This document shows positions 2,956 to 23,553 of a stretch of DNA of 64,000 nucleotides, piece after piece (within the stretch, counting starts at the first letter, position 1; each line of letters starts with the position of its first letter). The notes under the pieces are model-generated. The model was not told the DNA's origin. It did not search any database and saw only the letters and a list, made by a program, of their open reading frames with translations. The position numbers and the translations under genes are program-made. The stretch is from Candidatus Brocadia sinica JPN1 (lineage in GTDB: Bacteria; Planctomycetota; Brocadiia; Brocadiales; Brocadiaceae): the NCBI RefSeq assembly GCF_000949635.1, contig NZ_BAFN01000001.1, positions 682,001 through 746,000 on the forward strand. The letters are read 5' to 3'.

Positions 2956-3269
2956 CCTTTTCTGTTTTTAAAATATACATTCTGGAATTCCAGATAATTT
3001 TCAGCGGGATACCTTCTGTCTTTTTTGAGTATTTCCCTTTGTTTACCATTTGAGAAAAATTTGCACAAATAGGGGAGATTGGGTAAAAAAATTTGAAAAA
3101 ATTTCGCTTCTGAACTGCCATCCTTTACCTGAATCGCTCTTTCAATATCTGCGTTGGATTTCCTCATGATAATTAATTTGATTTTGCCAGGTGATTTTTA
3201 TAAGATTTTGGAATATTTTCGTGTTTATCTTAAAATTACAGTCCCGGTTCTTGCATTGGCTTTGAGGGT

Positions 3270-4175
3270 ATGCATCTTAAATTCAATACACCATCGTTTC
3301 TGCTTACTGCCTTAGTGCAGGGGCATCTTTGTAAGGTACTGTCCTTCCTCCTGATAATTTCTGTTTGTCTTCCATGCTATATTACCTGGGCTGTTACTAT
3401 GAAAGGAAATATCTACAAAACCTCGTCCAAAAAACACAGCGCAAGGAAGTGGATCAGAAATGGACAATCGAACTATAAACGGGGTAGATACGAACGGGCC
3501 GTCAGGGCATATAATAATTCCATTGCATGTTACCCAAAGTACTTTGATGCATGGGATGGGTTGGGAAATGCCCTATATTGCCTGGGAGATTATGATCTGG
3601 CCATTCAGGCTTATGACAAGGCGCTCGGCATCAATCCGGGCCGTAATGCTACCCGGGTGAATAAGGGGATTGCTTTCTATAAGAAAGGTAATTTTGCAGA
3701 AGCCTTAAAGTTATACGACGAGGTACTTGCTTCGGACCCAAAACTTGCAGCCGGCTGGTATAATAAAGGTATTGTCCTGATTGCGTTAGGGAGAAACCAT
3801 GACGCAATGCAGACCTTTGAAAAGGCCATTGAAATCAATCCAAAGGAAGATTTGGCATGGCATGGGAAAGGCTATGTACTAATTCTGCTCGATCAATACA
3901 ATGACGCCCTTAAACTCTTCAGTAATGCGGTTCAGATAAACCCAAACAGGGGATGGGCATGGAATAATATGGGGATTATCCTGAACAGCCTGGGTATGTA
4001 TGATGATGCAGTCAAGGCCTTTGATAAGGCTATTGAAATTAACCCGAAGAGCGCAAGGGCGTGGCATAACAAAGCGAATAGTCTGTATAATATGGGAAAA
4101 TATAACGAGTCTATGAGAACTTATAACAAAGCCATGGAACTGGACCCCCTCTTGTATGCAGGGATTAAAAAATAA
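3270..4175 (+). CDS. TPR repeat protein with N-terminal membrane/signal segment
   Basis: 301 residues. A hydrophobic segment at about residues 20-43 (VLSFLLIISVCLPCYITWA) looks like an uncleaved or cleaved signal sequence. Six or seven tetratricopeptide repeats follow at 34-residue spacing, with the usual A-W..G...Y..G.Y..A...Y.KA..INP pattern (for example AWHGKGYVLILLDQYNDALK). TPR proteins of this kind scaffold protein complexes in the periplasm; no catalytic domain is attached. An alternative internal start is ATG at 3399. It ends 22 bases before the next gene, on the same strand, so the two may be co-transcribed. Confidence 0.8.
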   Translation: MHLKFNTPSFLLTALVQGHLCKVLSFLLIISVCLPCYITWAVTMKGNIYKTSSKKHSARKWIRNGQSNYKRGRYERAVRAYNNSIACYPKYFDAWDGLGNALYCLGDYDLAIQAYDKALGINPGRNATRVNKGIAFYKKGNFAEALKLYDEVLASDPKLAAGWYNKGIVLIALGRNHDAMQTFEKAIEINPKEDLAWHGKGYVLILLDQYNDALKLFSNAVQINPNRGWAWNNMGIILNSLGMYDDAVKAFDKAIEINPKSARAWHNKANSLYNMGKYNESMRTYNKAMELDPLLYAGIKK

Positions 4176-7319: not shown

Positions 7320-9536
7320 CTAAAATCGGTAACTCAATCCGACAAAAAACGTCCTCCCCGGCCTGGGAAAATCGTCCGGAATGGAAATAGGTCCTGGGTC
7401 ACTATAGTCTTTATCAAGCAAGTTGAATACCGTACCCTGAACCTCCATGGTTTTAAAGAATTCTTTTGCAATAACAGAGAGATTAAGTAGTGCATAGGAC
7501 GGTAAGTCATCTCTGGGGTCGCCTGCTTCCCTGGAACGTCTCCCGCTCACAAAGGTGCTCAGGTTGGTATTGATATACTTCCAGTAGTGGGCGTTCACAC
7601 CAAAGTTGCCAAAGTGCTGTGCCACAAATGGCATGTCATCGCCATCGCCATCTTCCGGATTCTGGAAGGTATAATTCATAAATACGTAATTACCTTTTGT
7701 TATGTCTATCTTCGTCTCCGTTTCGATACCCTGTACGTGCGCATCTCCAAAGTTTTCATATCGTGTAGTACCCTGGGTGGTTGATAACGCACGAAGCACA
7801 ATGAGGTCTTTGATATCATTATTGAAATAGTTAATACTGCTCGTAACGTGTTTATTAAACTGGTAATTTAAACCCACTTCATACGTTCTAATTCTTTCGG
7901 GATCTAAATCCTCATTTCCCTGAATAGAAGGTTTGATAAGGGTAAACATTTCTAAAAAATTTGGCGCACGAAACGCCTCCCCGTAAAGGACTTTTACCGA
8001 TGCATTCTTCATAAATGCCCACGTCAGCCCAGCCCGGGGACTGGTTGTCTCGCCAAAATCATTGTAACGGTCATGCCTTACTCCTAATGTAAGGTTTAAG
8101 GTATCGGTAATATCCCATGTATCCTGTAAATAAAATGACAAAATCCTGCGGGTGTGGTCTTCAAAAAATGGATGTGTATCCGTAAAACTCTGCATGGAAT
8201 CAAGGGGTTCCAGCGTTTCTGGATTATAGTTATATGAAGCGCTTTTAGGGACTTGGTTGATTAATCGGTATTCCATACCCAGAGTAAAAATATTTCCATC
8301 GAATAATCTATAATCGAAGGGGAGTTCTGTACCAACTATTCTTTCAATCACTTTAAGACGTTGAGTAATCCCATCTGGATAGGTTGTAAAAGTGTCAATT
8401 ACACCGTCTCCATCTGTATCAAAAGGTAAGGTTGTACCATCTGGTAGTGCCTTAATATAATTATCCGCATCAAATTGGTCATAATAAACCCTAGGTCTTA
8501 TTGTAAAGCTCTCATCGAATGTTTTCTTGTATCCAACCTCACCAAAAACATAATCAATTTCAAAAAAAGATACGTCAGTTAAGGCATATTGAGGTCCAAT
8601 AAAAGTATCAGCCCTTTTATTTGTGTACCATCCATTAAAATAGAAATCATCGTATGTGGCTTTCAATTCCATGTCATATTCCTGCCTATCGTCATGTATT
8701 CTTCCTGGCGCCAATGACGCGGGAGGGAAACCCAAAGAGGACAGTGCGTTATCCATTAATGTTTGCGTATCACTTTCAATAATTCCATCAAAACCGTTAG
8801 TTTGTCTGTATCTGGCCATGCCGGAAATTCCAAGTTTTCCAAAGGTCTTACCAAACGTGATATTTTCATCATAGGTGTCGAAGTTTCCGTAACCACTGCT
8901 TACCTTTACCCCGTCGATATCCTTTGCGTCAAACGTAATAATATTAACAACCGCTAAAAACGCATTTTCACCATACACGGCAGAACCCGGTCCCCGGATA
9001 ATCTCTATCCTTTTTATATTTTCTACGGGGAAATCATCAAACGTTTCAAATATGCCTCCCCTTGCCGGGTTCATCGTAAAATGCCCGTTCACCATTACCC
9101 TTACCCTGTTTTCGCATTGAACACCCCGTACCACAGGAAGAGATATTCCCAAATCTCCTCTTTTTAAAATTTCAAATCCTGGTACCGTCCTCAGAATTTC
9201 TATAAAGGTGCGGTATCCTAAATTTTTAATCTCTTCGGCTGTAATTACAGTAACAATGCTTGGCGCTTTGCTGAGAGGGGTCTCCTGACGTGTGGCAAGG
9301 GCTGTCGTCTGATCGCACGCCAGCCAGAGACATTCTGTTGCGAATTCCTCCTTAAGAACAGCGCCGGTATAAGAAGCGTCTTTCTCATTATTGGAATGGC
9401 TTTCAGTTATGTGGGTTGCTTCTGTGCCTTCGGCGAGGATCGTAAACGAATAGAAAGGAATGCAGCTAAACAAAATACTGGAGTATACAAAGGGTAGGAA
9501 TAATAAATCTCTTTTGTTTTGGGGCGGTTTAACCAA
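7320..9536 (-). CDS. TonB-dependent outer membrane receptor
   Basis: 738 residues. A hydrophobic N-terminus (LLFLPFVYSSILFSCIPFYS) acts as signal sequence. The plug domain spans about residues 75-200 (PLSKAPSIVTVITAEEIKNL; then IKRIEIIRGPGSAVYGENAF, the conserved end of the plug). A 22-strand type beta-barrel follows and ends in the aromatic terminus FFVGLSYRF expected for outer membrane insertion. Start codon is TTG at 9536, supported by AGGA eight bases upstream and the lack of an in-frame ATG before the plug. It imports a siderophore, cobalamin or another large ligand using TonB-ExbBD energy; substrate unknown. No cobalamin riboswitch or clear Fur box is visible upstream, and no transporter genes adjoin. 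Confidence 0.9.
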   Translation of the reverse strand: MVKPPQNKRDLLFLPFVYSSILFSCIPFYSFTILAEGTEATHITESHSNNEKDASYTGAVLKEEFATECLWLACDQTTALATRQETPLSKAPSIVTVITAEEIKNLGYRTFIEILRTVPGFEILKRGDLGISLPVVRGVQCENRVRVMVNGHFTMNPARGGIFETFDDFPVENIKRIEIIRGPGSAVYGENAFLAVVNIITFDAKDIDGVKVSSGYGNFDTYDENITFGKTFGKLGISGMARYRQTNGFDGIIESDTQTLMDNALSSLGFPPASLAPGRIHDDRQEYDMELKATYDDFYFNGWYTNKRADTFIGPQYALTDVSFFEIDYVFGEVGYKKTFDESFTIRPRVYYDQFDADNYIKALPDGTTLPFDTDGDGVIDTFTTYPDGITQRLKVIERIVGTELPFDYRLFDGNIFTLGMEYRLINQVPKSASYNYNPETLEPLDSMQSFTDTHPFFEDHTRRILSFYLQDTWDITDTLNLTLGVRHDRYNDFGETTSPRAGLTWAFMKNASVKVLYGEAFRAPNFLEMFTLIKPSIQGNEDLDPERIRTYEVGLNYQFNKHVTSSINYFNNDIKDLIVLRALSTTQGTTRYENFGDAHVQGIETETKIDITKGNYVFMNYTFQNPEDGDGDDMPFVAQHFGNFGVNAHYWKYINTNLSTFVSGRRSREAGDPRDDLPSYALLNLSVIAKEFFKTMEVQGTVFNLLDKDYSDPGPISIPDDFPRPGRTFFVGLSYRF

Positions 9537-9907
9537 ACAACAGTTCCTAAAGATTTATCGTTGATTTGCCACAGCGCATGCCGTGACAACGCTAACTCTA
9601 AGTAGCGGAACTATGTATTTTGTACAGTGTGCTACTTTTACTCTGTTTTCGTGATAAATGCGATTCAGATGATCATGGATTTTCCTGGTATGGTAAAAAC
9701 CCTTTTTTTGTTTGATTGCTCAGGCTTTGCCCTTATCGAAACGTTTTTCTGTTATACGAAAAGTCAATAATGAAATTTTGGGTTTTAAGAACTTTAGGCT
9801 TTATAGCAAACCAAATATCTGATGTCAACTAATAATTTAATAAAACTAACGAATTACACGCCAAGAGTCTTGAGGTTGAACGTCTGCACTTCAAGGACAT
9901 TTACCCT

Positions 9908-10291
9908 GTGGAAGAGGTCAAGAAGCGCCTCAACAACAAAGAATGCGTCTATCTTGTTGGTAAGGAGGATGGGCAGGTCGTGGGTTTTGTGTTTGCCTGG
10001 GTGTCGGAGGGTGGGGAGAATTTACACTGGATGGGTTTGGCGCCGGGATACAGGAAAAAGGGATACGGAGAAAAACTCCTGATGGAGACAATAAAGCGCT
10101 TCATGGAAAAAGGCTGCCATGAGGCAAAGCTGTTTACCTATCCTTCCGCAAAGGAGGCATATCACTTTTTCAAAAGTACGGGTTTAAAATTGAGAGGGTT
10201 ACTTAAATTAGACCTATGGCCATTTTTCTGGTCAATTATGCTTTTGCTTCTGACTGTTTTCTCAACGAAAGGGAAATTCTTCTCCTCTTGA
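9908..10291 (+). CDS. GNAT-family N-acetyltransferase, possibly 5'-truncated
   Basis: 127 residues from GTG at 9908. The GNAT acetyl-CoA motif is clear (LAPGYRKKGYGEKLL), preceded by strand VGFVFAWVSEGGENLHWMGL and followed by a C-terminal AKEAYHFFKSTGLK segment. The open frame extends upstream to 9836 with family-like sequence (VERLHFKDIYPVEEVKKRL) but has no ATG, so the usual first ~20 residues appear missing; it may be a truncated copy. The 3' end runs 56 bases into the 3' end of the convergent tex gene, and the last ~25 residues are a hydrophobic tail unlike GNATs, suggesting loss of the native stop. Confidence 0.6.
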   Translation: MEEVKKRLNNKECVYLVGKEDGQVVGFVFAWVSEGGENLHWMGLAPGYRKKGYGEKLLMETIKRFMEKGCHEAKLFTYPSAKEAYHFFKSTGLKLRGLLKLDLWPFFWSIMLLLLTVFSTKGKFFSS

Positions 10292-12383
10292 GATCCACAT
10301 CCAGTACGGTAACATTCACTTTTTGATGAACCTTAACCACATCATTGGGATTTTTTATAAAGCGGTCAGAAAGTTGGCTTATATGTACCAGTCCGTCCTG
10401 ATGAACCCCAATATCAACAAAGGCGCCGAATGCAGTGATGTTAGTTACGACCCCGGGGAGTTTCATACCGGGCATAACATCCTCGATCTTTTCGATCCCT
10501 TTTGTAAAACTAAACGGCTCAAACTTTTCCCGCGGGTCACGACCGGGTTTTGCTAATTCTTTCATGATATCCTGCAATGTCGGTAAACCTACTGAGTCTT
10601 TTACATATCTTGAAAGGTCTATTCTGTTCCGATGATTCTCGTCTCTCATCAAATCGACTACCGAGCAGTTTGTCTCTCTTGCCATGGCATCTACAATATG
10701 ATAACTTTCAGGATGGACAGCGCTCCGGTCGAGAGGGTTTTCTCCATCACTGATGCGAAGAAAACCTGCTGCCTGCTCAAATGCCCTTGCCCCCAATTTA
10801 TTTACCTTTTTCAGCTCCTCCCTGGACCGAAAGGGGCCATGTTCGTTTCGGTACTCAACGATGTTTTTGGCAAGTTGGGGTCCCAGGCCGGAGACATACA
10901 TGAGCAGTTGTTTGCTGGCGGTATTGACCTCGACTCCAACAAGATTTACACAACTGATAACTATGTCATCCAGACTGCGCTTCAGTATTCCCTGATCCAC
11001 GTCGTGCTGGTATTGTCCCACACCAATGGATTTAGGATCTATCTTTACCAGCTCTGCCAGGGGGTCCATAAGCCTTCTCCCGATAGATACTGCCCCCCGT
11101 ACCGTTACATCCTGGTCAGGAAATTCTTCGCGGGCAACGTCTGAAGCGGAATAGACGGATGCTCCACTTTCATTCACCATCACAATCTGAATCTTTCCCG
11201 GGAGGTCGAGTTTTCTCATAAACGACTCGGTTTCCCTTCCTGCGGTACCGTTTCCTATTGCAATGATCTCTACCTCGAATCTTTTACAGAGATTTAGAAT
11301 CTTTGCAGCAGCTTCAGATGCGCCTGCCTCAGACTGATGAGGATATACGGTGTCCGTATGGATCAGTTTTCCCTGTCTGTCCATACATACCACCTTACAT
11401 CCCGTACGAAATCCGGGATCGATGGCAAGGACGTTTTTTTGTCCCAGTGGTGGAGCAAGCAAAAGCTGCCGAAGATTTTCAGCGAAGACTTTAATTGCCC
11501 CTTCATCCGCCCTTTTCTTTGTATCTAAACGTATCTCTGTTTCCATTGATATTGACAGGAGTCTTTTGTAGCAATCGTGCACTGCCATCTTGACTTGCAG
11601 GGAAGCAGCCCCGTTTCCTTTCACAAACAATGATTCAAGTATGGCGAGGGCATCTTCTTCAGGAGGAGTTACCCGCAGTCCCAAAAATCCCTCCTTTTCC
11701 CCGCGCCTCATCGCTAAAATTCTGTGGGATGGGGCCGTCGAAACGGGCTCTTCCCAATCGAAATAATCCTTGTACTTAATCCCGTCCTCTTCCTTACCGG
11801 TAATTACCTTCGTCCTGAAGACACCTTTTGTCAGAAAAAGTTCACGGATTTTTGCCCGGGCATTTTGATCTTCATTAACCCATTCGGCAATAATATCCCG
11901 CGCCCCTCCAAGTGCATCCTCACCGGAATTAACCCCCTTCTCCGCATCCACGTAGGCCTCTGCTACTGCAAACGGATCGGTATCATCCTGTGTGAAGATG
12001 CGCTGAGCCAGTGGTTCTAACCCCTTTTCTCTGGCAATAATTGCCCTGGTACGGCGTTTGGGACGATACGGCAGATATATATCCTCCAGTACCGTCATAG
12101 TCTCTGCTATAAGGATTTTTCCCTTGAGTTCGTCTGTGAGTTGCCCCCTCTCCTCTAAAGACTTAAGAATAGCTTCGCGCCGTTTATCCAGTTCCCTGAG
12201 CTGGTCGAGACGGTCACGAATTGTCATAATGGCGATTTCATCCAGAGAACCAGTGGCTTCCTTTCTGTAGCGTGCAATAAAAGGAACTGTAGCGCCTTCC
12301 TCAAGGAGTAGGGCGGTACCCTGTACTTGCTTTGTTGTCAGATTGAGTTCTTTGGTAATCTGAGAAATGTATTCATTATTCAT
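10236..12383 (-). CDS. tex: Tex-family S1 RNA-binding transcriptional accessory protein
   Basis: 715 residues from ATG at 12383 (AAGGAAAGGATT upstream; an upstream ATG at 12410 has no ribosome site). The order is as in Tex: N-terminal helical domain (VPFIARYRKEATGSLDE), YqgF/RNase H-like domain with NVLAIDPGFRTGCK near residues 325-340, helix-hairpin-helix region (NIVEYRNEHGPFRSREEL), and a C-terminal S1 domain (GVVTNITAFGAFVDIGVHQD) at about 645-710. Tex binds nucleic acid and promotes transcription-complex recycling and RNA turnover. Full length for the family (~720-780). Divergent from the Crp-type gene with a 370-base control region between. Confidence 0.95.
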   Translation of the reverse strand: MNNEYISQITKELNLTTKQVQGTALLLEEGATVPFIARYRKEATGSLDEIAIMTIRDRLDQLRELDKRREAILKSLEERGQLTDELKGKILIAETMTVLEDIYLPYRPKRRTRAIIAREKGLEPLAQRIFTQDDTDPFAVAEAYVDAEKGVNSGEDALGGARDIIAEWVNEDQNARAKIRELFLTKGVFRTKVITGKEEDGIKYKDYFDWEEPVSTAPSHRILAMRRGEKEGFLGLRVTPPEEDALAILESLFVKGNGAASLQVKMAVHDCYKRLLSISMETEIRLDTKKRADEGAIKVFAENLRQLLLAPPLGQKNVLAIDPGFRTGCKVVCMDRQGKLIHTDTVYPHQSEAGASEAAAKILNLCKRFEVEIIAIGNGTAGRETESFMRKLDLPGKIQIVMVNESGASVYSASDVAREEFPDQDVTVRGAVSIGRRLMDPLAELVKIDPKSIGVGQYQHDVDQGILKRSLDDIVISCVNLVGVEVNTASKQLLMYVSGLGPQLAKNIVEYRNEHGPFRSREELKKVNKLGARAFEQAAGFLRISDGENPLDRSAVHPESYHIVDAMARETNCSVVDLMRDENHRNRIDLSRYVKDSVGLPTLQDIMKELAKPGRDPREKFEPFSFTKGIEKIEDVMPGMKLPGVVTNITAFGAFVDIGVHQDGLVHISQLSDRFIKNPNDVVKVHQKVNVTVLDVDLKRRRISLSLRKQSEAKA

Positions 12384-12522
12384 AATAATCCTTTCCTTAT
12401 GCTGCGCCAACGTACTTTCATTGAATCATTGAAGATGATAATACAGATTTTCCCTAAATCGCTTCAACGATCCTTTTGTTTCCCTGTCATTTCCTTTCAT
12501 CTTGTATGAGAAAGTGTATCAT

Positions 12523-12563
12523 GGCACACTTGTGTGACGTCACACTTCTGTAACATGACACAG
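12523..12563. promoter_or_regulatory. Tandem palindromic operators between tex and the Crp-type gene
   Basis: Two palindromes in 41 bases: GTGTGACGTCACAC (12532-12545, perfect 14-bp) and TGTAACATGACACA (12549-12562, imperfect). A block matching 30 of 41 positions, including both half-site sets, is found at 23382-23422. The block lies 140 bases upstream of tex and 190 upstream of the Crp-type gene. Conservation of two sites with identical spacing at two loci suggests operators for one regulator; which one is inference. Confidence 0.6.
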
Positions 12564-12752
12564 TTTTACATAGCCATCTATACAATCACATTTTTATCTT
12601 TTTGTATTCATCCATCGTCACAATTGTAATAAAGAGCAGGTTTTATAACAAAACAATTCTTTGATATTTTCCCTCCATATTTTCTGGCATCTACCTTGCG
12701 CATCCGAAACGAACCAATCAAATTTCATAATATATTGACAAAATGAAAATGC

Positions 12753-13433
12753 ATGAATGAAGTGAAAAAATTTGATCTGACGACACGGTTAAAAAATGTA
12801 CCTCTGTTTAGTCCTTTTAGTGATAAACAGTTGGACATGCTTTCTAAAGTTGGGATAATCAAGAGTCTCAGGAAGGATTGTACAATTGTATATCAGAACG
12901 GACCCGGAGATTCATTTTACATTGTTTTATCCGGTCGTGTAAAAGTAACCATCTTAAATGAAAACGGTAAAGAAATCGTCCTTTCCATTTTACAAGCAGG
13001 CGATTTTTTCGGCGAGTTATCCCTCCTGGACAATGCACCTCGATCAGCAAGCGTAATTGCCGTAGAAGACACCTCGTTGTTTTTACTTACCCGGAACCGA
13101 TTTTGTCAATTGATAACGGACCACACTGATATAGTAAAAATAATCCTCAGGGAAATTTGCATCCGTTTAAGGAACGCCAACGGAAAAATTGAAAGTTTTG
13201 CCTTTTTAGATGTTTATGGAAGAACGATCAGGGTGCTTCAACAACTGGCCCATAATCAGGGAATAAAGACAGGCAATAGCATAACGATTCTAAACGCCCC
13301 CAGTCATCAAGAGCTTTCCTCTATGGTTGGCACATCGCGAGAGACGATTACAAGAATTATCAAGATATTAAAGAAAAACAAAACCCTTATTTCTTATAAG
13401 GGAAGAAAAATTGTTCTGAGTGGAATTACGTAA
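12753..13433 (+). CDS. Crp/Fnr-family transcriptional regulator, CRP-like
   Basis: 226 residues. The cyclic-nucleotide-binding fold covers about residues 15-130, with the phosphate-binding cassette GDFFGELSLLDNAPRSASV close to that of E. coli CRP (Arg and Ser present). The winged-helix domain covers about 150-222, with recognition helix MVGTSRETITRIIK. The RETxxR positions match those by which CRP reads TGTGA half-sites. The N-terminal cysteine cluster of FNR is absent, so Fe-S oxygen sensing is unlikely. Start at ATG 12753 gives a normal length; no good Shine-Dalgarno is seen. A perfect TGTGA-N6-TCACA site lies 50 bases past the stop. Confidence 0.9.
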   Translation: MNEVKKFDLTTRLKNVPLFSPFSDKQLDMLSKVGIIKSLRKDCTIVYQNGPGDSFYIVLSGRVKVTILNENGKEIVLSILQAGDFFGELSLLDNAPRSASVIAVEDTSLFLLTRNRFCQLITDHTDIVKIILREICIRLRNANGKIESFAFLDVYGRTIRVLQQLAHNQGIKTGNSITILNAPSHQELSSMVGTSRETITRIIKILKKNKTLISYKGRKIVLSGIT

Positions 13434-13483
13434 TGTAATTTGGCTAATCTGTCTTTTACGATTTTAAAAATATTTTTTAAAAT

Positions 13484-13499
13484 TGTGATATACATCACA
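13484..13499. promoter_or_regulatory. CRP-type binding site TGTGA-N6-TCACA
   Basis: TGTGATATACATCACA has both half-sites perfect with the CRP spacing of six. It lies just downstream of a gene for a regulator with a CRP-like recognition helix, 93 bases upstream of a 22-codon membrane peptide. Function is inferred from consensus. Confidence 0.6.
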
Positions 13500-13591
13500 T
13501 ACAGCATTGAAAGAATTTCATATCATGTTGTCCAAATGAAACGGAGAAGTAATGTCTTTGTCAATTTTACCTTAAGAGAAAGGATGGACAC

Positions 13592-13660
13592 ATGAGCGCT
13601 TTTTTTGTTTTTATAATAATCAGTACCCTGATTTCTTTGGTAATGGTAATACTCCTGTAA
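13592..13660 (+). CDS. Putative 22-residue single-pass membrane peptide
   Basis: ATG at 13592 is preceded by AGAAAGGATGGACAC (ribosome site AAAGGA). The reading MSAFFVFIIISTLISLVMVI plus two leucines is one continuous transmembrane helix, then TAA. A still smaller frame, MSLSILP at 13552-13575, also has a ribosome site (GGAGAAGTA). With a CRP-type site upstream this looks like a small regulated membrane protein or accessory subunit of the CydX/KdpF size class; no homologue is claimed. Too short for routine gene callers. Confidence 0.45.
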   Translation: MSAFFVFIIISTLISLVMVILL

Positions 13661-13695
13661 GAGTTCAGGATTTTTACAAAAGGGAGAAATTCCCC

Positions 13696-13803
13696 ATGTC
13701 CGACAGATGCGATGTGACAGAGAATATCCAGCTTGCTCTTGAATTGTTTGCCAGGAAAGGGCTGCTGGAGAAGATTGTCAGAGGCAGGCGAGGCAGGCGC
13801 TGA
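13696..13803 (+). CDS. Putative 35-residue protein of unknown function
   Basis: ATG at 13696 with AAAAGGGAG about nine bases upstream. The product MSDRCDVTENIQLALELFAR continues KGLLEKIVRGRRGRR. The centre is an amphipathic helix resembling a short winged-helix fragment; the C-terminus is arginine-rich and encoded by a short direct repeat (GGCAGGCGA/GGCAGGCGC). It follows the membrane peptide by 35 bases and precedes a terminator-like hairpin at 13904, so the two small frames could form one transcript. Unrecognised; could be a remnant. Confidence 0.3.
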   Translation: MSDRCDVTENIQLALELFARKGLLEKIVRGRRGRR

Positions 13804-13903
13804 AATGTATCGGGACTAACCGCTGTTATCATGACATTGAACACAGAGTGATTTGCTGAAGAATAAAATCCGCACATATTTTTTATTATGCTGTGTCAAA
13901 AGA

Positions 13904-13931
13904 AAAAGCCACTCATCACCAAGTGGCTTTT
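13904..13931. terminator. Rho-independent terminator-like hairpin
   Basis: Stem AAAAGCCACT / AGTGGCTTTT with an eight-base loop. Flanking A and T runs make it usable in either direction. It closes the crp-small-ORF region. The remaining bases to tatA (13932-14218) show no gene. Confidence 0.7.
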
Positions 13932-14218
13932 GGATTGTGATACTCCTGAATGAGCTGAACGCTGACAGCCGAGGGCTCCAAGTCTTGCTTTACTTATATC
14001 TTCCCACCCTTCTTCCCTTGCATCCCATCTTTCCATGATTTGCCCGCTTACTGCGCCATGTCAGCCTTTGTCTTCTCTTGTCTCTCATTGTTAAATTACC
14101 CCTATTTTAAAAATTGAATTTGAATCGGTCTTCTGCAATCATTCACCCAAAATGTCGACGTAGGTACACGTTGCCCCGTGTCCTATAATGTAATTCCAGA
14201 ATATACATTTTACACTAG

Positions 14219-14446
14219 TTATTTGCTTTCCTGCTTGGTGGCGTCCTTTTCAGACTCTATCTTCTTCGCAGGTTTACTACTCGATTCCTCTACATCTTCC
14301 TCGACTCCCTTTACTCCTTTCTTAAATTCAACGATGCCCCGCCCCAGGGATTTCATAACTTCCGGAAGTCTTTTACCAAAGATCAGAAGAGCCACAATCA
14401 GGATGATAAGCCATTCCCAACCACCTGGCATACTAAACATATTCAT
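14219..14446 (-). CDS. tatA: Sec-independent translocase subunit TatA/E family
   Basis: 75 residues: a short periplasmic N-terminus, one membrane helix (WEWLIILIVALLIFGKRL) with the conserved FGKRLPE hinge, an amphipathic helix (VMKSLGRGIVEFKKGV), and a charged acidic/lysine tail. This is the standard TatA layout and length. TatA oligomers form the pore for folded twin-arginine substrates. No tatB or tatC adjoins, so Tat genes are dispersed here. ATG at 14446 is preceded by AAGGAGGCATGA-type spacing (GGAGG). Confidence 0.92.
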   Translation of the reverse strand: MNMFSMPGGWEWLIILIVALLIFGKRLPEVMKSLGRGIVEFKKGVKGVEEDVEESSSKPAKKIESEKDATKQESK

Positions 14447-14819
14447 GCCTCCTTATAAAAAATTCTCTATAATACCAAAATTATATCATTGGACTGATGA
14501 AAATCAACGAATTTGTTTTTGGGAAAAACACCAGTTCATCAGGGTCAGGAATCGATGATTCGGTATTGCAGCCAGCATAGCATTTCATGAAAGTGTCTCT
14601 ATCCGTATCATCATTGTGAGCAACAGCAAAACAATCTGAAGTCTTTTAGAAACAAGAGATTGCTTCTTTGCTCCACTCCTCGCAAAAACAATTTTTTACG
14701 TATATATTTTACTGAAACGCTATACTCGTTAGCGAGGTGGAGTAACCACGACAAGATTCTGAAACAAGTTCAGAATAACAAATAACAGTGCCGTGTCATT
14801 GCCGAAATTGGTTCAGTTG
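14447..14819. other. Intergenic region with inverted repeat, no gene seen
   Basis: Contains the imperfect inverted phrases TTGCTCCACTCCTCGC (about 14667-14682) and GCGAGGTGGAGTAA (about 14733-14746) around an A+T-rich core, a small palindromic element. No reading frame of interest. Confidence 0.4.
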
Positions 14820-15824
14820 CTAATTATTGCTGTTTCTGTAAGGTCTTATTTCCCTCAGCGTTTTTACAAGACGTGAAATATCTTCAGGGAGGTCTACCTG
14901 GAATTCCATTTTCTTATTCTGAATAGGATGGAAAAACCCTATCCTGTGCGCATGGAGCGCCTGTCTCTCGATAATTGGCATTTCTCCGGATTCTCTTTCC
15001 TTCTCCAGCAGGTCGGAAAGATAGCATGATTCATGGTTACTATACATAAAATCAGCAACAACCGGATGCCCAATCGACCGCATGTGTACACGGATTTGAT
15101 GTGTCCGTCCCGTCTTTGGCATTATTCTTACCAGGGTATAACCACGGAACCGTTCCATTACCTCATAGATAGACACAGCCTCTTTGCCGTTATCGCGTCT
15201 TACGGCCATTTTTTGCCGGTCTGTTTTATGCCTTCCAATAGGTAAATGAATCTCGTCGGAATCAAACATAATCTCGCCTTCGACCACGGCAATATATTCC
15301 TTTTTTACATAGCGTTTTTCAAACTGCATGGCAATATGGGAATGGACGGCATCGCTCTTGATTACCAGCATAATCCCGCTTGTATCTCTATCCAGCCTAT
15401 GCACAATGCCCGCTTTTAATGGCCCGTTGGCTTGGGAAAGATTCTGACAGTAAAAGGCTAATGCGTTAACAAGGGTGCCGGAAGGATGGCCGCCCGCAGG
15501 ATGCACAACCATATCGTACGGTTTGTTAATGAGCATCAAATAATCATCTTCATACACAATATTTAAGGGTATCTCCTCAGGGACGATCTTGCTTTCTTCA
15601 AGAACAGGCACATGGACGGAAATACAGTCTCCCTTCTGGATATCATAGCTGCTTTTGACCGTATGTCCATTGACCAGTACAGCCCCTTCTTTTATTAACT
15701 TCTGAATAAAAGTCCTGGAATAATCGGGAAGACGCGAGGCAAGGTATTGATCAATCCTTTTGTCTTCAAATACCTTTTTTATATCAAAGGTTACCTCTTT
15801 TACTTGCGAAATTTCCTGCTCCAT
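14820..15824 (-). CDS. rluD: Ribosomal large subunit pseudouridine synthase, RluD/RluA family
   Basis: 334 residues from ATG at 15824; a longer frame to 15872 would overlap the upstream gene, whereas 15824 lies five bases after that gene's stop, implying translational coupling. N-terminal S4 domain (RIDQYLASRLPDYSRTFIQK, then VLVNGHTVK) at about 12-75. Catalytic domain follows with HRLDRDTSGIML, whose Asp (about residue 140) is the catalytic residue of all such synthases, and the TGRTHQIRVHM motif. It isomerises uridines in 23S rRNA (RluD: helix 69). Assignment to RluD rather than RluC rests on the S4 domain and general resemblance. Confidence 0.88.
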   Translation of the reverse strand: MEQEISQVKEVTFDIKKVFEDKRIDQYLASRLPDYSRTFIQKLIKEGAVLVNGHTVKSSYDIQKGDCISVHVPVLEESKIVPEEIPLNIVYEDDYLMLINKPYDMVVHPAGGHPSGTLVNALAFYCQNLSQANGPLKAGIVHRLDRDTSGIMLVIKSDAVHSHIAMQFEKRYVKKEYIAVVEGEIMFDSDEIHLPIGRHKTDRQKMAVRRDNGKEAVSIYEVMERFRGYTLVRIMPKTGRTHQIRVHMRSIGHPVVADFMYSNHESCYLSDLLEKERESGEMPIIERQALHAHRIGFFHPIQNKKMEFQVDLPEDISRLVKTLREIRPYRNSNN

Positions 15825-21374: not shown

Positions 21375-23057
21375 TCAGAGCAAAAACATCGATGCCTCTA
21401 TCTTCCGGGGGCCGTTCAGTTGAGGCGTCTGATCCTGAATATCGGCAAGTTTCATGGACCGACCACACATTTTCGTGAGATTCCCGTACGTTAATTTCTT
21501 GCCCTTATTCTTATAAATTTCATGGCATATGAAATAGGTAAATGCGCCATAATTTGCACCGCCTACGGGATACTCTTTGGCAGTTTGACTATCCTTGCAT
21601 GCTGAAAGTGCAATCGGAATATACTCGTCTTTCTCTCTTTTCATCTCCCGTAATAACCGCCGTTTCTTGTCCGCAAATTCCTCGCGCAATTTAAACACAG
21701 GCAAAGGACTCCCTTCAAATTTAAACTCATACACCCTGTTCAAAATATCCATGGGCGGCAAAAATCCTCGCACTTTGATACTTTCACCCCTTGTGCCTGT
21801 TCCTGAATGGCAGCAATCGAAGATGACCGTAAGCTTGACCCCGGCAGGGAGGTTTCCAAACAATTCCCTGAAATCGTTGTCTATCAACCCTGGCGCATCA
21901 GAATCAAAGTCGTAGGGGACTATGCATTCATCAAGTCCGTCCACTTCATCACCTATCCGTTCTGGTATTTGAGTTCCGTGTCCCGAATAGTGTAAAAGAA
22001 GCGTATCTCCACTTTTTGCCCCATCAAGCAACCACTCTATCTTGTTCCTGATCTTATTCGTGGTTGCGCGGTGATTATGAACCATATGGATGTCTTTGGT
22101 TGGGAATTCATGCACCTCCTGAAGCATACGGTTTACCAGGAAAGAGTCGTTTATGCAGCCGTAGAGCGGTGGAATAGGGAACGGATATTCGTTAATGGCA
22201 ATCAGTAATGCCTTTTTCTTTGGTTTTCTCGGCTCTAACGCCCTCTCTGCAACCCCTGGTGGGATTGTTACCCTCAAGGATGTCAGCAGGATCCCGGTCA
22301 TTTCGTCATCCCCTAGATACCCCACCGCAAGGTGACCAGTCTTACTATGGATATTCATGTTTTTAAAGCGGTCATGATCATCGTAAATATTTAAGTAACC
22401 GCCAATAGGATCGCCATTAAACCATTCCCAGAATCCGTTTCCCTCATTATCGACATTCGTCCACCGCATCGTCTTCTCCGGATATTTTCGCCGTTCAATT
22501 CTGACAACGGGTATCCACAGAGGGCTGCCAATGGTAATCAGTGACGAAATCTTTGGACATTTGTCCCACCTGCTTAAGACATCGTACGTTACTACTGTTC
22601 CCCAGCTATGACAGATAATGTGGAGTTCAGTATCCTGTTGTGACAATTCGATAAGTTTGTCCCGAAGCTGTTTTTGGACTTTATCTGCTAAAGCTGCATC
22701 AAGTAAATAATATCCAAAATCGCCAAGGTAATCGCCAATGAATCCTCGCTCCATACTTCGATCGAGAGTTTTTCCTTTCCCTTTGCACCATCGTAAGAGT
22801 TCCCGGTGAATTGTCGTATTTATTTCATCCTTGAGTTTCGATGCCTTGTCTGTTAACGAGGGCGCTTTCAATGATCTTTTTCCGGGTTCTCCTCCCCCTG
22901 AATAATCATCCATAATGCCTTCCCACCATACACCATGATAGTCACGGTTAGGGTCAAATTTGTTTGTCCCGATTGCATTAGCAACTCTCTCACGCCATTC
23001 ATGCCAGTAATCAGACTTTGAATCCCCAATTCCATGGACAAAAATTATTTTTCCCAT
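21375..23057 (-). CDS. Fusion of alpha/beta hydrolase and metacaspase-like peptidase
   Basis: 560 residues from ATG at 23057, preceded by GGAAAGGGGGAACCGT. N-terminal half (about 1-280): lipase-like fold with MGKIIFVHGIGDSK at the start and IICHSWGTVVTYDVL (GxSxG-like, nucleophile Ser about residue 152). C-terminal half (about 298-555): caspase-like C14 domain starting KKKALLIAINEYPF, with catalytic His in LLLHYSGHGTQIP (about 356) and Cys in VIFDCCHSGTG (about 414), plus DEVDGLDECIVPYD. The dyad and acidic pocket for basic P1 residues look intact, so an active metacaspase is expected. No signal peptide: cytoplasmic. Could act in regulated proteolysis, cell death or defence; context alone does not decide. 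Confidence 0.82.
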   Translation of the reverse strand: MGKIIFVHGIGDSKSDYWHEWRERVANAIGTNKFDPNRDYHGVWWEGIMDDYSGGGEPGKRSLKAPSLTDKASKLKDEINTTIHRELLRWCKGKGKTLDRSMERGFIGDYLGDFGYYLLDAALADKVQKQLRDKLIELSQQDTELHIICHSWGTVVTYDVLSRWDKCPKISSLITIGSPLWIPVVRIERRKYPEKTMRWTNVDNEGNGFWEWFNGDPIGGYLNIYDDHDRFKNMNIHSKTGHLAVGYLGDDEMTGILLTSLRVTIPPGVAERALEPRKPKKKALLIAINEYPFPIPPLYGCINDSFLVNRMLQEVHEFPTKDIHMVHNHRATTNKIRNKIEWLLDGAKSGDTLLLHYSGHGTQIPERIGDEVDGLDECIVPYDFDSDAPGLIDNDFRELFGNLPAGVKLTVIFDCCHSGTGTRGESIKVRGFLPPMDILNRVYEFKFEGSPLPVFKLREEFADKKRRLLREMKREKDEYIPIALSACKDSQTAKEYPVGGANYGAFTYFICHEIYKNKGKKLTYGNLTKMCGRSMKLADIQDQTPQLNGPRKIEASMFLL

Positions 23058-23381
23058 ACGGTTCCCCCTTTCCTGCAAATAAAAAAGCCTTACTACAGAG
23101 ATATTCATTCCGGCAGTAAGGCTGTCTTTATTCCCGCAAAAACCGGTTTTTTAAAACCCCGTCCGTACAGGCTTAAAGATCCACTACTTTGCGCCCCCCG
23201 ATCACTCAGGGTTTACCCTTATCAAAATGCTTGCTAAAGAGTCATTGGCAAAATAGAAACCATTTTACAACAGGCAAAAAAAATTTTAAAAATTATTTCA
23301 TTGTGATTTGTATTTTAATCACTTACGAACGAAGAACAAAACATGAATGGCAATGGATATAATGCGCAAAAAATGCAACAT

Positions 23382-23422
23382 GCCACACAAGTGTATCGTC
23401 ACATGTATGTGTCATGACACAC
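23382..23422. promoter_or_regulatory. Second copy of the paired palindromic operator block
   Basis: 41 bases matching the block at 12523-12563 in 30 positions. It contains the perfect 14-bp palindrome TGTGTCATGACACA (23408-23421) and a degenerate first site GTGTATCGTCACAT. It lies between the divergent hydrolase-caspase gene (325 bases) and the mgtC-type gene (240 bases). Confidence 0.6.
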
Positions 23423-23553
23423 AACCGGTATAATTCACGCGGAAGACAGTCTTTCTTTCAGATTCGATGCGGCCCAGGCTTCTTCGTGCCTTTCAGTATT
23501 TGAGAAAAAAGTCTAAACTTTATTTTTACTTTTGGTGGGAAGATAATAAACAT

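Follow-up and report, generated by a model that had tools for sequence, protein, structure and literature searches.

The window analyzed here is a stretch of 64,000 nucleotides (C1:682001-746000 of genome G000) from a Candidatus Brocadia species, an anammox bacterium. An initial annotation had placed two similar 41-base blocks in separate intergenic regions of this stretch, and both were found to sit between divergent genes. The first lies between tex and the gene for a Crp-type regulator (12753-13433, plus strand; Pfam cNMP_binding and HTH_Crp_2), the second between mgtC and the gene for a caspase-domain protein (21375-23057, minus strand; Pfam Peptidase_C14), whose start was reassigned to an ATG preceded by a GGGGG ribosome-binding site. 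The match of 30 positions with the same spacing described for the two blocks was reproduced: positions 12523-12563 and 23382-23422 agreed in register at 30/41 positions. When both intergenic regions were shuffled 300 times, the best 41-mer match had a mean of 23.8 and a maximum of 29, and the value of 30 was never attained.

The triple-palindrome element

The 41-base blocks are portions of a larger 54-bp element consisting of three palindromes of 16, 14 and 16 bp, with a centre-to-centre spacing of 17 bp and the family consensus AAGTGTGnCATGnCACACwwGTGTGACGTCACACwwGTGTGnCATGnCACACTT. Three palindromes in the consensus correspond to the repeated dyad sites of a sigma-54 upstream activating sequence (UAS). 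Copy 1, a predicted enhancer assigned to neither strand and recovered in the genome search, spans 12512-12565, matches the consensus at 50/54 positions and comprises GTGTATCATGGCACAC (12514-12529), GTGTGACGTCACAC (12532-12545) and CTGTAACATGACACAG (12548-12563). The two operator-like sites originally described in this block, GTGTGACGTCACAC and TGTAACATGACACA, are indeed present, the latter within the third palindrome, but the palindrome at 12514-12529 and its counterpart at 23373-23388 had been overlooked. Copy 2 (23371-23424, likewise unstranded) matches at 44/54 positions and contains a degenerate outer palindrome ATGCAACATGCCACAC (23373-23388), the central GTGTATCGTCACAT (23391-23404) and a second outer palindrome ATGTGTCATGACACAC (23407-23422) with a perfect core, TGTGTCATGACACA at 23408-23421, in agreement with the perfect palindrome claimed for the second site of this copy.

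At element positions 8/47 and 13/42, the letters that the consensus leaves free in the outer palindromes were mutually complementary far above column expectation, in 41/67 copies for 8/47 (22.4 expected) and in 34/67 for 13/42 (21.6 expected), and letters inside one palindrome were not. A long hairpin was considered on this basis; since the AA/TT spacers were paired in just 26/67 and 22/67 copies and the shuffles ignore relatedness, it is kept as a side observation. In many loci, the interval from element to promoter (window 23263-23370, minus strand, for example) also contains a conserved A/T-rich block, CATAAGTnATT...GAAATAATT, which is perhaps the site of a DNA-bending protein.

A sequence-only search model was built from both strands of 11 copies. 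The genome-wide scan that had been proposed as a check returned 13 places in the own genome (4.08 Mb) at 52-69 bits, the next-best place scoring 12 bits. The model matched 24/39 genomes, the own one included, from genus to order. All 11 members of the genus (G000-G010) were matched; counted as match rows divided by two, G010 has 1 copy, G005 about 6 and each remaining genome 8-14, a range that holds for 8/10 genus relatives. When 84,980 species genomes were scanned for an exact pattern, 29 stretches were obtained, every one of which bore the label Brocadia, Scalindua, Planctomycetota or Planctomycetia, and the viral, phage and plasmid collections gave no match at the settings used. Two distant genomes, G013 and G015, hold about 30-55 weaker copies.

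At the orthologous mgtC loci, the element was present in 1/10 (G001), about 550 bp upstream of mgtC; it lies there in non-matching sequence and is thus uninformative on mgtC control. No clean empty site of a precise insertion was seen around mgtC. Decayed copies (L111-L113) were observed upstream of the Crp orthologues in G001, G002 and G008. Comparison of L151 (G009) with window 9500-15500 showed that G009 retains both element and promoter on the tex side, where a PqqD-like frame takes the place of crp behind the promoter. Loci L068 and L069 are a duplicated 3.8-kb segment, 90% identical, with element, riboswitch and gene, and the L069 copy of the 519-aa frame is shorter or broken.

Predicted sigma-54 promoters and c-di-GMP-I riboswitches downstream

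Comparison of the flanks among copies revealed another conserved block, at a fixed offset from the element, which proved to be a c-di-GMP-I riboswitch. The sequence between the two holds a TGG-N10-GC site of the -24/-12 type characteristic of sigma-54. A first promoter scan used a fixed canonical consensus and was noisier than the pattern counts that followed. Among 67 distinct intact copies, TGG[CT]-N7-TTG[CAT] oriented away from the element was found 34 times at a distance of 85-140 bp and 0 times in this interval when oriented toward it (6 matches elsewhere), against a mean of 0.6 in shuffled flanks, while TGG-N9-[TC]GC at the same distance gave 31 sites away, 2 toward and a shuffled mean of 1.25. 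Distances to the element edge, usually 105-135 bp, had their main peak at 116-122 bp and minor ones around 107 and 130 bp, which would fit DNA-helix phasing. A predicted sigma-54 promoter (GG-N10-GC) downstream at loop distance is present in its strict form in 34/67 copies; among the 33/67 copies lacking the strict pattern at 85-140 bp are variants, as well as a few copies in which no good site was seen. L071 and three relatives have a promoter-like site at another distance (178-260 bp), a good sigma-54 site is absent from L078 and a few other copies, and L068 and L075 show TTGAC-type sites near the aptamer.

In the window, the predicted promoter TGGCATCTACCTTGCG (GG-N10-GC; 12685-12700, plus strand) lies 119 bp from the edge of copy 1 with the crp-type gene next, and TGGTTTCTATTTTGCC (23247-23262, minus strand) lies 108 bp from the edge of copy 2, followed by the riboswitch and then the caspase gene. 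No such promoter was found on the tex and mgtC sides, where the best sigma-54 matches score only 5; mgtC has instead a TTGACA/TATACT promoter in sequence common to relatives. The genome encodes RpoN and activators of the Sigma54_activat/HTH_8 type, and one rpoN per genome was found in 5/5 genomes tested.

The leader of the caspase gene carries a c-di-GMP-I riboswitch aptamer (23109-23227, minus strand; RF01051) 144 bp downstream of copy 2, scoring 47.3 bits against the Rfam gathering score of 35. Folding of 23060-23240 (minus strand) predicted an intrinsic terminator at 23081-23124 (minus strand), between aptamer and start codon, as the expression platform. Intact or decayed element loci from nine genomes numbered 83 (81 fetched plus the two in the window), and the Rfam scan covered 81 of them, L180 and L181 being left out. 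An aptamer lay 140-351 bp from the element in 45/81 loci (44 without the duplicate L069), always downstream and oriented away from it, with 33/44 at 140-179 bp; aptamers at 564 bp (L145) and 1815 bp (L176) were excluded from this count. In the own genome, 7/13 copies are linked to a riboswitch of Rfam level, an eighth (L074) to a sub-threshold look-alike, and window copy 1, L071, L072, L077 and L078 have none linked. Two further arrangements were observed: L073 holds two riboswitches in series on one strand (2505-2605 and 3259-3374) with the element between them, and L079 has a lone palindrome (2032), the other two being absent, 27 bp upstream of a riboswitch at 1891-2005.

Matches to the c-di-GMP-I riboswitch at E<=0.01 number 56 in G000, 36 in G001, 47 in G002 and 45 in G009, so most riboswitches in these genomes stand without an element. 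As a control, 39 element-free riboswitches were fetched from the 56 of G000, one of which (L280) has a single palindrome. A sigma-54 pattern occurred in the 100 bp before the aptamer in 23/44 element-linked cases by the strict form and 30/44 by the loose one, compared with 2/39 and 3/39 of the element-free set; TTGAC showed the opposite trend (5/44 versus 23/39). The control set comes from one genome and the linked set from eight; within the own genome alone, a sigma-54 site precedes 3/6 (strict) or 4/6 (loose) of the linked riboswitches.

An Rfam scan of 20 distant loci found no riboswitch, and a search of 20 distant loci for GG-N9-[TC]GC remained near background; in G013 and G015, the promoter pattern was present in only 9/35 copies. 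From the missing riboswitches and the weaker promoter pattern, the coupling to the riboswitch looks like a Brocadia feature, two G018 copies excepted, and the enhancer itself seems older.

A candidate activator

A copy of the element begins 56 bp past the stop codon of a gene for a 584-aa response regulator (G000:C1:622439-624130) with Response_reg, PAS, Sigma54_activat and HTH_8 domains, i.e., of the REC-PAS-AAA-Fis type. The gene order in G000 is histidine kinase, candidate activator, element and a gene with PAS and HD_5 (HD-GYP type) domains, the HD-GYP fold being that of c-di-GMP phosphodiesterases, and both flanks of this locus match in G001, G002, G004 and G009. Among 30 activator loci, the own one included, 17 have an element scoring at least 34/54, where scores of 34-42 denote decayed or divergent copies and 34 is close to chance. 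Over the 31 genomes searched, the activator (E<=1e-120) was found in 17/18 genomes with at least three element copies versus 4/13 with fewer; the genomes are related and the counts not independent, so that the p value of 0.0003 should be read as indicative only. G029 is the exception, with about 7 copies and no activator at E<=1e-120. G030 and G037 have activator matches at 57-59% identity and no element, and G020 and G021, with 17 and 16 Sigma54_activat matches, have neither this orthologue nor the element. The genus shares the recognition helix SRRT[ILV]YRK (preceded by a stop in G004), which one of the two copies in G018 also has. The helix is different in the element-less G030 and G037. 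In G004 (L200), a single in-frame TGA interrupts the activator gene, due to decay or to an assembly error.

Proposed mechanism, alternatives and significance

The statistics define an element family with a preferred geometry, its association with riboswitches, its adjacency to and co-occurrence with an activator gene, and the presence of rpoN. The reading we prefer, with a probability of roughly 0.8, is that the element is an enhancer (UAS) for sigma-54 transcription, bound by one NtrC-family activator as three dimers, most likely the REC-PAS-AAA+-HTH_8 protein. Three dimers of this activator would occupy the three palindromes and nucleate a single AAA+ hexamer, which would reach sigma-54 RNA polymerase, bound to one side of the element, through a DNA loop of about 105-135 bp and activate a group of genes for signalling and the cell surface. 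The transcripts of 7/13 own copies would start with a c-di-GMP-I riboswitch, and expression would then require both the activator and the right level of c-di-GMP. Binding, hexamer assembly, looping, start sites, the sign of riboswitch control and the identity of the activator are what we infer here from sequence data.

The same enhancer role might be served by another sigma-54 activator of the genome or by several paralogues, which we regard as rather unlikely. The own genome has 23 Sigma54_activat matches, G029 holds element copies without the candidate, and some activator genes are themselves predicted targets (see below); against this, the candidate lies next to an element copy in G000 and in many relatives, and its presence follows copy number over the 31 genomes. 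That the blocks form operators of a small regulon, as the initial annotation proposed, agrees with their operator-like appearance and their occurrence in promoter regions, and this part of the account stands, although the sigma-54 promoters, the c-di-GMP riboswitch and 11 further copies had gone unseen along with the third palindrome. The attribution to the adjacent Crp-type protein was set aside and we consider it highly improbable. CRP has the helix SRETVGR, similar to SRETITR in the protein encoded here, its half-sites start with TGTG/CACA as do those of the element, and the degenerate copies that precede the Crp gene in three relatives (G001, G002 and G008) point the same way. However, the spacings TGTG-N6-CACA and TGTG-N4-CACA of the element consensus differ from the TGTGA-N6-TCACA of CRP, a discrepancy that had been noted from the start, Crp orthologues (E<=1e-30) were found in 3/11 relatives searched versus the element in 11/11, and the element is tied to sigma-54 promoters. 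The Crp-type protein is more likely a target of the element than its regulator.

Two readings without an enhancer role were also weighed and set aside. Dispersed intergenic palindromes, outer arms covarying like a long hairpin at two positions, sequence in common between the control regions of different genes and the existence of decayed copies would all suit a palindromic repeat, mobile or structural (MITE/REP-like), that plays no part in regulation. Such a repeat is nevertheless very unlikely, given the distance and orientation that the copies preferentially keep relative to sigma-54 promoters and riboswitches, the unpaired AA/TT spacers and the absence of matches, at the settings used, from viral, phage and plasmid collections. 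Abundant copies outside promoter DNA would have spoken for a mobile repeat, whereas the copies were intergenic and about half had the strict sigma-54 pattern at a set distance. Many copies also look like an A-tract, stem and T-tract, but bidirectional intrinsic terminators are the least probable of all readings, as both window copies lie between divergent genes, the best promoters are oriented away from the element and a scan of 12200-13000 called no terminator at copy 1.

The enhancer reading has precedents in known systems. In E. coli norVW, NorR uses three enhancer sites upstream of one sigma-54 promoter, and three-site DNA supports ring-shaped oligomers, most likely hexamers (PMC2941729), so that three sites feeding one hexamer are a precedent for the element. 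NorR senses NO through a GAF domain (PMC2941729), unlike the REC-PAS-AAA-HTH_8 candidate, which scores 331 against a cut-off of 476 with the NorR model; moreover, the element sites are contiguous, with centres 17 bp apart, and the likeness is one of architecture. The PEP-CTERM control region of PrsR/PrsK, with tandem kinase and activator genes, is similar in that many surface-protein genes are preceded by a dispersed activator site and, at a set distance from it, a sigma-54 promoter, an arrangement detected from sequence alone (PMC1569441). Its 17-nt motif 1 ends in TTTACA, has a mean spacer of 62.8 nt and is described for proteobacteria only, and the section describing it includes no riboswitch (PMC1569441); the candidate scores 362.3 against the TIGR02915 (PrsR) cut-off of 502.6. 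Activator sites at a comparable position, at least 100 bp upstream of sigma-54 promoters, were predicted in the Desulfovibrio vulgaris sigma-54 regulome, from whose main text the words riboswitch and c-di-GMP are absent (PMC4641369). The aptamer described here is an ordinary c-di-GMP-I riboswitch (RF01051, RF03167) by Rfam thresholds; it differs in sharing one control region with a predicted sigma-54 enhancer. For anammox bacteria, the nearest study among the sources available is a CRP/FNR meta-regulon analysis that used the E. coli CRP matrix (PMC8510549). The parts are of known kinds, and no description of the enhancer, the regulon or the riboswitch coupling, nor any sigma-54 enhancer or c-di-GMP riboswitch regulon of anammox bacteria, was found in the open-licence literature searched, which omits most subscription journals.

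Predicted targets were taken as the open frames on the promoter side, and 28 candidate proteins were run against Pfam, 9 of them without a match. They include the Crp-type regulator, two caspase-domain proteins, a TonB receptor, a polysaccharide-synthesis protein, PKD and Ig-type, autotransporter and matrixin proteins, GGDEF cyclases (L133, L173), the HD-GYP protein and further sigma-54 activators (L126, L084 and L147, in G001, G002 and G009). A common theme of cell surface and c-di-GMP is plausible among these targets. Comparison of 33 element-aptamer spacers showed that 24/74 same-genome pairs of different loci are similar (z above 4), which, together with the common A/T-rich block, suggests that enhancer, promoter and riboswitch may have spread as a unit before different genes.

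In the open-licence literature searched, little appears to be in print on what determines the timing of surface and signalling gene expression in anammox bacteria, and the pairing of a sigma-54 promoter with a second-messenger riboswitch is seemingly rarely discussed. As regulator, site, promoter and target list can be read from the sequence, the proposal is testable in vitro without a pure culture. We tentatively suggest, at somewhat less than even odds, that a portable two-lock cassette of triple enhancer, sigma-54 promoter and c-di-GMP riboswitch with terminator has been copied before unrelated Brocadia genes, where phospho-relay and second messenger would act as an AND gate. Since the predicted targets include GGDEF proteins, which make c-di-GMP, and an HD-GYP protein that likely degrades it, the circuit would feed back on its own second input, and it may govern the transition to aggregate growth in anammox granules.
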